From: Dictyoglomota bacterium | Lineage (GTDB): Bacteria; Coprothermobacterota; Coprothermobacteria; Coprothermobacterales; JAADFF01 | DNA: 40,437 bases | Assembly: GCA_013153035.1 (NCBI GenBank) | Contig: JAADFF010000012.1 | Location: 1 to 40,437, forward strand | Direction of reading: 5' to 3' | Shown here: positions 6,509 to 10,317 of the stretch, piece after piece | How positions within the stretch are numbered: the first letter of the stretch is position 1 | Layout of the letters: each line of letters begins with the position of its first letter | Made by a program: the position numbers and the translations under genes | The notes under the pieces: generated by a model | Databases searched by the model: none | Told to the model about the DNA's origin: nothing | Seen by the model: only the letters and a program-made list of their open reading frames with translations

Positions 6509-6520
6509 TTACTTTGTCAA
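6492..6520 (-). promoter_or_regulatory. Sigma-A-type promoter of the tRNA cluster
   Basis: On the minus strand a perfect TTGACA (6520-6515) is followed after exactly 17 bases by TAAAAT (6497-6492), which is 5/6 of the consensus. The 5' end of tRNA-Ser lies 17 bases beyond. This is the best promoter match I found in the window, as expected for stable RNA genes. It interlocks with an opposite-facing promoter at 6481-6508. Confidence 0.8.
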
Positions 6521-6543
6521 TATTGTGTCGGAGGGGGTACTCT

Positions 6544-7398
6544 GTGGATATAAAAACACGTATTTGTCTACCACTACTGTGGAAACTAGAGAAATATATG
6601 AAAAAGCCATATCATCCATTTAACGAAAAAGGTGATATATGGGAAAATCTTTATCTTTGGCAATACAAGACAACAGAAAAGACACTAAAACACTTTAATG
6701 TGGAGTTTTCAGGTAAAGTTGTCATGGATATCGGATGTGGCACAGGTGGAAAATCGGCATATCTGGCACAGTTTGCAGATAAAGTTATAGGTATAGATAT
6801 TAACCCCCACGCTATCAACAAAGGGAAACAACTTGTTAAAAAACATAATGCTGATGTAGCTGATAGGGTTATATTGAGGGTTGACAATGCATACAACATG
6901 GACCAGCCAGATAGTTCCGTTGATATTATTTTTATGGATGATGTATGGGAACACATAGAAAAACCATCAAAAGCCTTAAGAGAAGCTATTCGGGTTGTCA
7001 AACCAGGTGGATATATTCTCATTGCTTTCCCTCCACTAAATCATCCATGGGCTGCCCATGTTAATGATCTTATTTCTATTCCATGGATACACTATTGTTT
7101 GTGGGAAAAATACATTGTTAGATGGTATATACACGAAGCGTTAAGAATAGAAAACGGTATAGAAAGATTAAAGTTTAAGGGAATCAAACCAACAGATAAA
7201 CGAATAACATATATCAATCATATGACGCTAGAACGTACATTGGCTATTCTGTACAAGTACAGAAGCAACATAGATATTTATGATTTCTCCTATGATTTAT
7301 TGAAGATACCACTTGCTAAGTTTTTTAGCAAACTTGAGCGCATAGGGCTTTTCTTTTTCTCTAAATATTATTTCACTCTGAGAAAGAGGGAAAGATGA
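6544..7398 (+). CDS. Class I SAM-dependent methyltransferase
   Basis: This is a 284-residue protein with a Rossmann-fold methyltransferase core. Motif I is VVMDIGCGTGGKSAYLA (Gly-rich loop about residues 62-69). The acidic SAM-ribose contact is in VIGIDINPHAI, motif IV region DIIFMDDVWEHI, and the post-motif VVKPGGYILIAFPPLNH. This is the Methyltransf_11 type. The substrate is unknown. Its position ahead of two TagA-like glycosyltransferases suggests a sugar or lipid carrier in surface polymer synthesis, but that is inference from context. I chose GTG 6544 because GGAGGGGG lies 6-7 bases upstream. TTG 6514 upstream and ATG 6598 downstream are possible but poorly supported. The stop overlaps the start of the next gene, indicating an operon. 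The last 60 residues are basic and aromatic and may lie near the membrane. Confidence 0.85.
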   Translation: MDIKTRICLPLLWKLEKYMKKPYHPFNEKGDIWENLYLWQYKTTEKTLKHFNVEFSGKVVMDIGCGTGGKSAYLAQFADKVIGIDINPHAINKGKQLVKKHNADVADRVILRVDNAYNMDQPDSSVDIIFMDDVWEHIEKPSKALREAIRVVKPGGYILIAFPPLNHPWAAHVNDLISIPWIHYCLWEKYIVRWYIHEALRIENGIERLKFKGIKPTDKRITYINHMTLERTLAILYKYRSNIDIYDFSYDLLKIPLAKFFSKLERIGLFFFSKYYFTLRKRER

Positions 7399-8129
7399 TG
7401 AGGCTTTGCATTGGACGTATACCTGTAGACATATTAGATAACAATGAACAGGCTAAAAAGCGTATTATCGAACTCGCGAATCGAACTAATACCCCATCAT
7501 TTGTGGTTACATTGAATCCAGAGATAGCGTACCGTGCAGAAATAGACAGACGTATAAGATACATTGTTAGGCATTCTTCCCTCAACATCATTGATGGTAT
7601 TGGTATAGCAAAGATTATCAAATGGAAAACGGGAATAACTCCCACAAGAATTACTGGAGTAGATACTATATGGCAAGTTCTTATGAATGTCGATGATGAT
7701 ATTCCCGTATTCTTATATGGTGCCAAACCCGATGTTTTGAATACAGTCGTGGAAAAGCTTGTATCATCTAATCCTAACATAAACATTGTAGGTATATCTC
7801 ATGGATATAGACCTTGGGACAGGGTTGCAGAAGAGATTATAAAAGCTCGCCCTCGTTTGCTACTGGTAGCATTGGGAGCTGGAAGGCAAGAAACTTTTAT
7901 GTATCATTATATTAGACCCCTAACAATTCCTATTCTCAGCATAGGCGTTGGTGGCAGTTTTGATGTATGGAGCGGAAAAGTAGAAAGAGCTCCTAAGCAG
8001 GTACAGGATTTGGGACTCGAGTGGTTATGGCGTAATATTAAGCAACCTTCTCGGATAGGCAGACTTATGTACAGCATGATGTATATGATTACAGCTTTAA
8101 AAAAAGAGGTGCGTGAGTGTGAGAAGTAA
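7395..8129 (+). CDS. WecG/TagA/CpsF-family glycosyltransferase (copy 1)
   Basis: This is a 244-residue member of the GT26 family, which transfers N-acetylmannosaminuronate or ManNAc-like sugars to undecaprenyl-linked GlcNAc early in teichoic-acid or wall-polymer synthesis. Family landmarks are VTLNPEI (Thr39, Asn41), NIIDGIGIA (Asp67, the position of the proposed catalytic base in TagA), FLYGAKP, GAGRQETF and the C-terminal GVGGSFDVWSGKVERAP. The basic amphipathic tail (about 205-244, EWLWRNIKQPSRIGRL) matches the membrane-anchoring appendage known in TagA. ATG codons at 7395 and 7398 are both possible. AGAGGG spacing slightly favours 7398. The start overlaps the methyltransferase stop. A second, related copy follows with an 11-base overlap. 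Confidence 0.92.
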   Translation: MMRLCIGRIPVDILDNNEQAKKRIIELANRTNTPSFVVTLNPEIAYRAEIDRRIRYIVRHSSLNIIDGIGIAKIIKWKTGITPTRITGVDTIWQVLMNVDDDIPVFLYGAKPDVLNTVVEKLVSSNPNINIVGISHGYRPWDRVAEEIIKARPRLLLVALGAGRQETFMYHYIRPLTIPILSIGVGGSFDVWSGKVERAPKQVQDLGLEWLWRNIKQPSRIGRLMYSMMYMITALKKEVRECEK

Positions 8130-8847
8130 ATACATATGTGGTATAAGGGTTGATGAGATCGATAGAAAATCTGCTCTAAAATTTGCTAAACAGCTACTTT
8201 TAAACGATACATACAACTTTAAATGGATAACATCTATAAATCCGGAAAAGTGTGGCAGAGCTATGGAAAATGAGGCACTAAGAAATACCATCAACGGCTC
8301 TATAATGACTATCCCAGATGGTATTGGTATTGTCTGGGCTGGCCGTATGAACGGACTTTTATTAAAACATCGCATACCGGGTATAGACTTCGCATGGAAT
8401 ATGATCCGGCTAGTACATAAATACAACCTCAAACTTTATCTATACGGTGCTAAACCTGAAAGCAACCAAGGTGCTGTAGCACGTATAGAGGCAACAATGC
8501 CTGGCATTAATATCGTAGGTGCTATAGACGGCTATAGAGAGTGGAACGAAGTAGCAGCGGATATAGCAGATAAAAAGCCTGATCTCCTCCTCATAGCTAT
8601 GGGAGGAGGTAAACAGGAAGAGTTTATCTGGAAATACAAAGACATATTACCTGTTAAAGTTGCCATGGGTGTGGGCGGTAGCTTTGATGTGTGGGCTGGT
8701 AAGGTAGAAAGGGCACCTCGTCTATGGCAGGCGATAGGAATGGAATGGTTCTATAGAATAGCCAAGGAGCCATTCAGAATACCAAGGCTCAAATACGGCT
8801 TGAGATTCATGATGTGTAGCATGTATCAGATGCTGTATAATATGTAA
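8119..8847 (+). CDS. WecG/TagA/CpsF-family glycosyltransferase (copy 2)
   Basis: This is a 242-residue GT26 paralogue of the preceding gene. It shows the same landmarks in the same order: ITSINPEK, TIPDGIGIV (Asp67), LYLYGAKP, MGGGKQEEF and GVGGSFDVWAGKVERAP, ending in an amphipathic tail with EWFYRIAKEPFRIPRL. I chose GTG 8119 because GAGGTG lies 8 bases upstream. GTG 8113 sits only 2 bases from that site. By eye the two copies are clearly divergent rather than a recent duplication. They therefore probably add different residues, or act on different acceptors, in one surface polymer. Confidence 0.92.
   Translation: MRSKYICGIRVDEIDRKSALKFAKQLLLNDTYNFKWITSINPEKCGRAMENEALRNTINGSIMTIPDGIGIVWAGRMNGLLLKHRIPGIDFAWNMIRLVHKYNLKLYLYGAKPESNQGAVARIEATMPGINIVGAIDGYREWNEVAADIADKKPDLLLIAMGGGKQEEFIWKYKDILPVKVAMGVGGSFDVWAGKVERAPRLWQAIGMEWFYRIAKEPFRIPRLKYGLRFMMCSMYQMLYNM
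8836..8841 (+). promoter_or_regulatory. Possible -10 element ahead of the SCIFF-like peptide gene
   Basis: A perfect TATAAT overlaps the end of the second TagA-like gene, 32 bases before the peptide ATG. The predicted transcript start near 8848 would leave a short leader holding the GGAGGTG ribosome-binding site. I see no good -35 box at 16-18 bases, so this is a tentative promoter that could let the peptide be expressed separately from the genes upstream. Confidence 0.35.
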
Positions 8848-8873
8848 GAAATTATTATGTGGAGGTGACTATT

Positions 8874-9002
8874 ATGCATATTAAAAAGACTGTGCTAAAG
8901 GTAAAGATAGAGAATGATCTTGACAAAGCTTATCACATGGCATGTCAGACTGCTTGTAAAACCTCTGCCACTGTGAGCAACATTTCCTATGACGAGGAGT
9001 AA
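8874..9002 (+). CDS. SCIFF-like ribosomal peptide precursor with only two cysteines
   Basis: This 42-residue ORF starts at ATG 8874 with a strong GGAGGTG site 6 bases upstream, immediately before a SCIFF-type radical SAM maturase. The N-terminus MHIKKTV and the core CQTACKTSATVSN match the SCIFF family (six cysteines in about 45 residues), whose core as I recall it is CQSACKTSCTVAN. Here only Cys24 and Cys28 remain and the cysteine of TSC is alanine. Cys28 and Thr33 keep the five-residue spacing of the Cys-Thr thioether reported for the clostridial peptide CteA/CteB pair, so the crosslinked pair is preserved. The stop overlaps the start of the maturase gene by 14 bases. The mature product's role in the SCIFF family is unknown. 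The middle (residues 8-23) is lysine-rich and charged, like a leader. Confidence 0.85.
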   Translation: MHIKKTVLKVKIENDLDKAYHMACQTACKTSATVSNISYDEE

Positions 9003-10317
9003 TAATAGACTATACGCCTTCTCACGTTTAGGAAAATACTTTGTTATCGATACCTACACGGGCTCGTCGTTTGAAGTAGACGAGCCCGTGTATCGTTATA
9101 TACACGACTCCATCCCATCAAATGAAGGTAGAGAGGGCGTAGAAGAAATATATAGCGTTCTTGATAATCCACCTAGCAGAGAAGAAATTCTTGCTATTGT
9201 AGAAAATTTAGAAAAACGTACTCACAGGGCACTATGTCTTAATGTAACTCATACATGCAATCTGGCATGCCGATATTGCTTCGCCGCTCAGGGAACATAT
9301 GGCGGACCTAGAAACATTATGTCAGAAGACGTTGCCAAAGCTGCAATAGATTGGCTCGTGGTAACCGATGCTAAAACTGTTGATATAGATATCTTCGGCG
9401 GAGAGCCACTCCTTGCGTGGGATTTAGTGCTATTTATACTCGAGTATGGTACAAAGAAGGCTGAAGAAGAAGGCAAACGCATACGCTTTTCGCTAACCAC
9501 AAACGGTGTACTCCTTACCAAGGATAAACTTGATGTCCTCAATGAATACGATGTCAATCTAACTCTTAGCATAGACGGAGATAAGTGGCACAACGACATG
9601 TTTAGGATCACCCCAGATCGAAAAGGAACATTTGACACCATCATTGAAAACTTTCTTGAAGTAGAACGCACAAGAAAAGGATATAACTATTATGTCAGAG
9701 GTACATACACAAAGTGGACTATAGACTTCGCATCAACAGTACAGTATCTAGCTGATTTAGGTTTTAAAGTAATCTCTATGGAGCCTGTCACAGGCAGTGG
9801 TATGCCATGGCATATAACAATGGATGACATACCTCGTATAGAAGAGGAATATGAGAAACTGGCACATATTTTCCTTGACTATGCCCGCAAAGGTAAACCG
9901 TTTATCTTTTATCATTTTGATCTTCACAGGGTAAATCCTCCATCACTGGTAAGACGATTCACCGCCTGCGGAGCAGGCCTTGAATATATGGCTGTTGCCC
10001 CCGATGGTACTATTTATCCTTGTCATCAGTTTGATGGAGTTAAGGAATTTGCTATGGGCAATGTTAAAAATCTGAAACCATATGAAGAACCCAGGCAAAA
10101 TATACGAAAGATATTTGTTCATGCCAATGCCTTAAGAAAATCTCCATGCACAACCTGTCCTTTTAGAACACTGTGTGGTGGAGGATGTCATGCTGTAGGT
10201 TACTTTACCACTGGAGATGTTATGAAACCAGACCCGGTACAATGCGAAATTATAAAGCTCAGACTCCAATATGCTATAGCCGTTAATGCATTTGATGAAT
10301 ACCCTACTTCCGTTTAA
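8989..10317 (+). CDS. SCIFF-type radical SAM/SPASM peptide maturase
   Basis: This is a 442-residue radical SAM enzyme expected to form a thioether crosslink in the small peptide encoded just upstream. An N-terminal peptide-recognition region (about 1-80) is followed by the CxxxCxxC cluster motif CNLACRYC (Cys90, Cys94, Cys97), the GGEP motif (137-140) and LTTNGVLL. The C-terminal SPASM domain has the full seven-cysteine pattern, Cys327, Cys345, Cys387, Cys390, Cys396, Cys400 and Cys419, for two auxiliary Fe-S clusters. Length and layout match the 'six-Cys-in-45' maturase family. The start ATG 8989 has no clear ribosome-binding site and lies inside the peptide gene, so translation is probably coupled. 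A long perfect hairpin occupies codons 23-35. The 3' end overlaps mutL on the other strand by 14 bases. The enzyme is oxygen-sensitive by nature, which fits an anaerobe. Confidence 0.93.
   Translation: MTRSNNRLYAFSRLGKYFVIDTYTGSSFEVDEPVYRYIHDSIPSNEGREGVEEIYSVLDNPPSREEILAIVENLEKRTHRALCLNVTHTCNLACRYCFAAQGTYGGPRNIMSEDVAKAAIDWLVVTDAKTVDIDIFGGEPLLAWDLVLFILEYGTKKAEEEGKRIRFSLTTNGVLLTKDKLDVLNEYDVNLTLSIDGDKWHNDMFRITPDRKGTFDTIIENFLEVERTRKGYNYYVRGTYTKWTIDFASTVQYLADLGFKVISMEPVTGSGMPWHITMDDIPRIEEEYEKLAHIFLDYARKGKPFIFYHFDLHRVNPPSLVRRFTACGAGLEYMAVAPDGTIYPCHQFDGVKEFAMGNVKNLKPYEEPRQNIRKIFVHANALRKSPCTTCPFRTLCGGGCHAVGYFTTGDVMKPDPVQCEIIKLRLQYAIAVNAFDEYPTSV
9055..9092 (+). repeat. Perfect 14-bp inverted repeat (hairpin) inside the maturase gene
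   Basis: Bases 9055-9068 (TACACGGGCTCGTC) pair perfectly with 9079-9092, leaving a 10-base loop GTTTGAAGTA. The stem is GC-rich in an AT-rich gene. It lies 52 bases after the peptide stop codon and covers codons 23-35 of the maturase. No T tract follows, so it is not a standard intrinsic terminator. It could protect or process the upstream peptide mRNA, or limit maturase expression relative to substrate. Confidence 0.75.

Follow-up and report, generated by a model that had tools for sequence, protein, structure and literature searches.

SCIFF peptides are among the most widespread RiPPs. To our knowledge, no role has been assigned to five of their six cysteines, and the threonine that accepts the cross-link is disputed. 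A precursor that has only two cysteines is therefore of interest, as an experiment of nature on the cysteines that cross-linking requires and as a substrate free of the cysteine crowding that hampers linkage mapping.

The closest described precursors are CteA and Tte1186a (thermocellin; TIGR03973, PF13165). A Cys32-Thr37 link has been reported for both in vitro, and a Cys32-Thr34 link, through C-gamma, for CteA after co-expression in E. coli (reviews PMC8326336 and PMC8172795). In the crystal of the maturase CteB (5wgg/5why), Cys21, near the start of the core, occupied the open site of Aux I (PMC6231123, PMC8326336). Here we describe a locus of this kind in the window, the whole stretch of 40,437 nucleotides that was analysed. 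We estimate a probability of roughly 75% that it is a working ranthipeptide locus, in which a lineage-specific, reduced SCIFF precursor is paired with its own co-adapted maturase and would receive one thioether.

A two-cysteine precursor conserved across Coprothermobacterales

The precursor gene (Table 1) is translated as MHIKKTVLKVKIENDLDKAYHMACQTACKTSATVSNISYDEE, which starts with MHIKK and has two cysteines, Cys24 and Cys28, the second of them placed at Cys-x4-Thr spacing from Thr33. With CteA and Tte1186a it shares a leader start of the M-K-H-I-K type, the core S/A-C-Q-S/T-A-C-K-T-S-x-T-V-x-N, the donor cysteine, both candidate acceptor threonines, and a position just 5' of a TIGR03974-type maturase gene. 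It differs from them in lacking cysteines 1, 2, 5 and 6, among them the equivalent of the Aux I-bound Cys21, in having Thr for Ser after the third cysteine, and in a shorter spacing between leader and core.

TIGR03973 (SCIFF) matches the precursor with E 1.5e-5 to 6e-5 and 22.9-24.8 bits, below its curated cut-off of 50 bits, and PF13165 with 20.6 bits, below its cut-off of 27 bits; the homologue in Coprothermobacter proteolyticus is also under both (22.5 and 20.7 bits). The precursor thus departs from two written definitions of its family, the model score and the six cysteines in about 45 residues. Cysteine number is, however, not strict in SCIFF, since five-cysteine (34 sequences) and four-cysteine forms exist. 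The core motif is present (third and fourth Cys, Ala, Lys, Thr, Thr, Asn), as is every position that is invariant or near-invariant among the 142 precursors that we compared. The first-pass annotation had described a SCIFF-like precursor beside a SCIFF maturase that lacks four of the canonical six cysteines; the TIGR03973 and TIGR03974 matches, the MHIKK start, the core and the adjacency of the genes bear out the first part, and alignment of the collected precursors (first, second, fifth and sixth absent) the second. Judged by sequence, the locus is homologous to SCIFF ranthipeptide loci and is predicted to work like one.

Table 1. Positions of the features discussed, numbered from the first letter of the window
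Feature	Position	Strand	Remarks
WecG/TagA/CpsF-family (GT26) glycosyltransferase	7395..8129	+	same apparent operon as precursor
Second WecG/TagA/CpsF-family glycosyltransferase	8113..8847	+	26 nt 5' of precursor
Ribosome-binding site ggaggtg of precursor	8861..8867	+	6 nt 5' of ATG; from sequence
Two-cysteine SCIFF-type precursor	8874..9002	+	42 aa; stop codon included
Core ACQTACKTSATVSN	8940..8981	+	identical across six genomes of the order
Cys24	8943..8945	+	third SCIFF cysteine; invariant, 142/142 precursors
Thr26	8949..8951	+	Ser in 136/142 precursors; Thr in two-cysteine clade only
Cys28	8955..8957	+	equivalent to donor Cys32 of CteA/Tte1186a; alignment and PMC8326336
Thr30	8961..8963	+	equivalent to Thr34 (142/142), acceptor reported for CteA in E. 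coli; PMC8172795
Thr33	8970..8972	+	equivalent to Thr37 (139/142), acceptor reported in vitro; PMC8326336
Radical SAM/SPASM maturase	8989..10317	+	442 aa; overlaps precursor by 14 nt
14-bp perfect hairpin	9055..9092	+	inside maturase 5' coding region
Ser319 of maturase	9943..9945	+	Cys in 74/74 maturases outside two reduced clades

We compared the window's genome (G000) with one of the same genus (G001), five of a sister family, and a third family that shares only the phylum. The 14-residue core is identical in G000, G001, G002, G003, G004 and G006. These six are all the genomes of the order in which a contig covers the precursor gene; the contig of G005 stops short of it. One of the six, G002, is the complete, single-contig genome of Coprothermobacter proteolyticus DSM 5265, which places the two-cysteine form in a cultured organism. 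All 14 core codons vary synonymously among the six genomes, with no replacements, and between the window and G001 the precursor has dN 0.012 and dS 1.23 over 34 codons (dN/dS about 0.01). Genome searches found a single precursor copy in the window's genome and its relatives, and a search of the window's genome for a second, six-cysteine copy found none. A sequencing error is ruled out by the identical core in independent genomes, including the complete DSM 5265, and these together with the single-copy searches also rule out a degraded copy. It had been anticipated that six-cysteine relatives at this locus would overturn the first reading; instead, all six genomes of the order keep the two-cysteine core, and the form is present clade-wide under purifying selection.

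The loss of four cysteines and the scores under the family cut-offs might also be expected if the precursor had ceased to be modified and were decaying as a relic. Purifying selection on the precursor contradicts this reading: the core is identical across two families with every codon synonymously variable, and dN/dS within the genus is about as low as 0.01. All cluster ligands of the enzyme are kept as well, and synteny is shared between the families, in both of which the locus is preceded by a WecG/TagA-type glycosyltransferase gene and followed, on the opposite strand, by mutL and mutS. A relic is, in our view, very improbable.

Other two-cysteine forms were sought in Clostridia with a model of the reduced precursor. 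The highest score in 399 genomes of the G059 phylum was 39.9 bits, against 74.9 bits in the window's genome, and the best 20 matches all had five or six cysteines. On the genomes compared, the two-cysteine SCIFF is a lineage-specific, natural variant that appears fixed across Coprothermobacterales, an order of heat-loving bacteria. In the literature, where the primary SCIFF reports are known to us through reviews, we found no description of a two-cysteine SCIFF and no paper that connects SCIFF, radical SAM or ranthipeptides to Coprothermobacter.

Precursor cysteines and the maturase

Precursors were collected beside SCIFF maturases in Clostridia-type genomes and two other phyla, which gave the 142 distinct sequences. 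They were recognised by core similarity, a criterion that would overlook strongly diverged precursors; at about 17 maturase loci none could be recognised in the stretch examined. For L055, L057-L059, L062, L033 and other SCIFF-type maturases, the 1.5 kb around the gene contained no precursor that could be recognised. With the canonical cysteines labelled a to f, all six are present in 95 of the 142; e is the only one missing in 34, d in one, and d and e are missing in three (family f156, five genomes). The third family of the window's phylum keeps c, d and e (two sequences), the two-cysteine clade only c and d (six), and one more sequence was scored without a, which an insertion has displaced. 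Column c is Cys in all 142, which likewise share Ala31, Lys33, Thr34 and Asn40; column d holds Cys in 138 and e in 99, so that the clade keeps the two most conserved cysteines of the family. Cysteines a, b and f (1, 2 and 6) are lost only jointly, and only in the window's phylum; the comparison in this way separates a jointly lost module from a kept core of cysteines 3 and 4. An alignment in which the first cysteine here is canonical number 2, followed by a four-residue deletion, is disfavoured by the three-cysteine sister, which reads FKVSCQSAC against FKGACQTAC in the two-cysteine clade.

The donor cysteine is missing from the precursors of L107, L109 and L111-L113 (G298-G302; PCKSAAKTANTTGN) and of L035 (G126; SCQSASKTSCSIVN), with Ala at the donor position in the five f156 genomes and Ser in G126. 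The maturases beside them are intact, and no further copy of the precursor was found. With exceptions of this kind at the donor position, SCIFF chemistry may vary within the family.

As the only invariant cysteine of the family, Cys24 would be expected to serve a family-wide role, either in substrate binding or in the activity of the finished product. The minimal substrate put forward by the first-pass annotation is thus more than a mere donor plus acceptor, since Cys24 is present in 142/142 precursors. A different use of this conservation would make Cys24 the true donor in this lineage, with Cys28 only assisting or binding Aux I. The third cysteine is never replaced and the fourth is replaced in four precursors, and f156 keeps the third while losing the fourth; however, the fourth cysteine is the donor in both characterised systems (PMC8326336) and is kept in the two-cysteine clade, and we consider this assignment quite improbable.

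The maturase matches TIGR03974 (SCIFF maturase) with E 1.4e-117 and 393 bits, below the curated cut-off of 425 bits, as do maturases of several five-cysteine and four-cysteine lineages. CteB (5wgg) matches it with E 1.6e-95, aligned over residues 58-428, and the RRE, radical SAM and SPASM regions and all cluster-binding cysteines are common to both. These are Cys90/94/97 for the RS cluster (the CX3CX2C radical SAM motif), Cys327/345/400 for Aux I and Cys387/390/396/419 for Aux II, with all seven SPASM cysteines kept, and the ten are spaced like the ligands listed for PapB (PMC10470005). At the N-terminus, HHalign pairs the RRE-like region with those of canonical maturases (96.7%, E 3.6e-10). 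An AlphaFold2 model of the maturase from three sequences had a pLDDT of 48 and was set aside. Compared with CteB, the enzyme has Ser for Cys at 319, Arg for Lys at 80 and a shorter linker from RRE to barrel.

The Cys usual at position 319 lies eight residues N-terminal of the first Aux I cysteine and is not among the cluster ligands. The position is Ser in the two-cysteine clade and Asp in the three-cysteine family, and Cys in the five-cysteine and f156 lineages. Among 49 columns that are near-invariant elsewhere, four are changed throughout the two-cysteine clade and two in the three-cysteine family; both of the latter, the position-319 Cys and the Lys before the radical SAM motif, are shared with the two-cysteine clade. 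Because cysteines 1, 2 and 6 and the position-319 Cys were lost in the same phylum, enzyme and substrate appear to have changed together, and a, b and f, lost along with that residue, are probably one module contacting the part of the enzyme around position 319. A single enzyme residue is in this way tied to the lost module. It had also been suggested that, if the maturase is active, the missing cysteines are dispensable; this can be upheld for the co-evolved pair only, because the enzyme, too, has changed (Cys to Ser319).

How often this happened is constrained by the tree. The two-cysteine maturases form a clade of seven rows with 100/100 support, and a 100/98 split separates them from the three-cysteine family. 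A joint origin of the two clades is thus opposed by the best tree, but the AU test does not reject a tree constrained to unite them (p 0.174), and therefore the coupled loss would have happened once or twice; the linkage between the changes in precursor and enzyme has no more than these one or two events behind it. Six cysteines would be the ancestral state by parsimony only, the tree being unrooted. The three-cysteine SCIFFs (G007, G008) likewise lack cysteines 1, 2 and 6, but they keep cysteine 5 and the Ser after cysteine 3, and have different neighbours.

Acceptor threonine and the predicted cross-link

The window's precursor keeps the equivalents of both reported acceptors. Across the family, the Thr34 position has no exceptions, and those at Thr37 are Gly, Gly and Ser, all in one clade. 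In L010/L037 (G059) and L034 (G089), Thr37 is replaced by Gly (SCGVAN, SCGIAN) and Thr34 is kept, which bears on the disputed acceptor. Conservation is thus suggestive, without being proof, of the Thr34 position (here Thr30) as acceptor over Thr37 (here Thr33). A Cys28-Thr33 pair had been proposed at the outset, with its conservation as a test. Both residues are identical in the six genomes of the order and the spacing is that of the reported link, but this cannot be taken as the sole register, Thr30 being equally kept.

In addition, Thr26 gives the precursor a second Cys-x-Thr, so that it reads C-Q-T-A-C-K-T, and one could envisage two thioethers, C24-Q-T26 and C28-K-T30, which would use both cysteines in a compact two-ring peptide. 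Thr26 occurs in 6/6 precursors of the two-cysteine clade and 0/136 others, the link reported for co-expressed CteA in E. coli is of the Cys-x-Thr type (PMC8172795), and the related PapB makes six links in one peptide (PMC10470005). However, many canonical SCIFFs have Cys-Gln-Thr at the second cysteine (b), yet one link is reported, and Thr26 is a single inherited change; we regard two thioethers as unlikely. The same goes for the wider proposal of a rewired system, rather unlikely as a whole, in which cysteines 1, 2 and 6 and the position-319 Cys are gone and two adjacent Cys-x-Thr thioethers consume every cysteine.

In the preferred reading, a reduced precursor with a single thioether, the N-terminal RRE of the maturase would bind the leader (MHIKK...), and Cys28 would be brought to the Aux I site that is left open. 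Abstraction of a hydrogen atom from a downstream Thr would then be followed by formation of the C-S bond, the acceptor more likely being Thr30 (Cys-x-Thr) than Thr33. The predicted product would carry one thioether, with loss of 2 H, and Cys24 would be retained, as in every SCIFF, for a role common to the family. A parallel is the ranthipeptide maturase PapB with the minimal PapA substrate (msPapA), where there is likewise one cross-link site, the site in the window being a predicted one; msPapA is a man-made truncation of a Cys-x3-Asp precursor, whereas the window's precursor is natural and of the Cys/Thr type.

Neighbouring genes and hairpins

Upstream of the precursor, positions 6514-8847 of the window encode a methyltransferase and two tandem WecG/TagA/CpsF-type glycosyltransferases, in one apparent operon with the SCIFF pair. 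The hairpin within the maturase gene (Table 1) is stronger than in all 400 synonymous recodings, and the same was found in G001. In C. proteolyticus a hairpin followed by T7 lies in the same region, where the encoded FF...EE explains part of it (p 0.28). It is possible that the hairpin acts as an attenuator, which would lower the maturase relative to the precursor. Strong hairpins inside the maturase gene, no farther than about 75 nt past the stop codon of the precursor, also occur in L006, L007, L004 and L005, and the TTTTTTT that follows the hairpin in C. proteolyticus and G006 is terminator-like. Strong hairpins in the maturase 5' coding region were likewise seen in L011, L065 and L066, with a 24-bp stem in three genomes of the G053 phylum, and in the canonical locus L036 a hairpin lies between the precursor and maturase genes.
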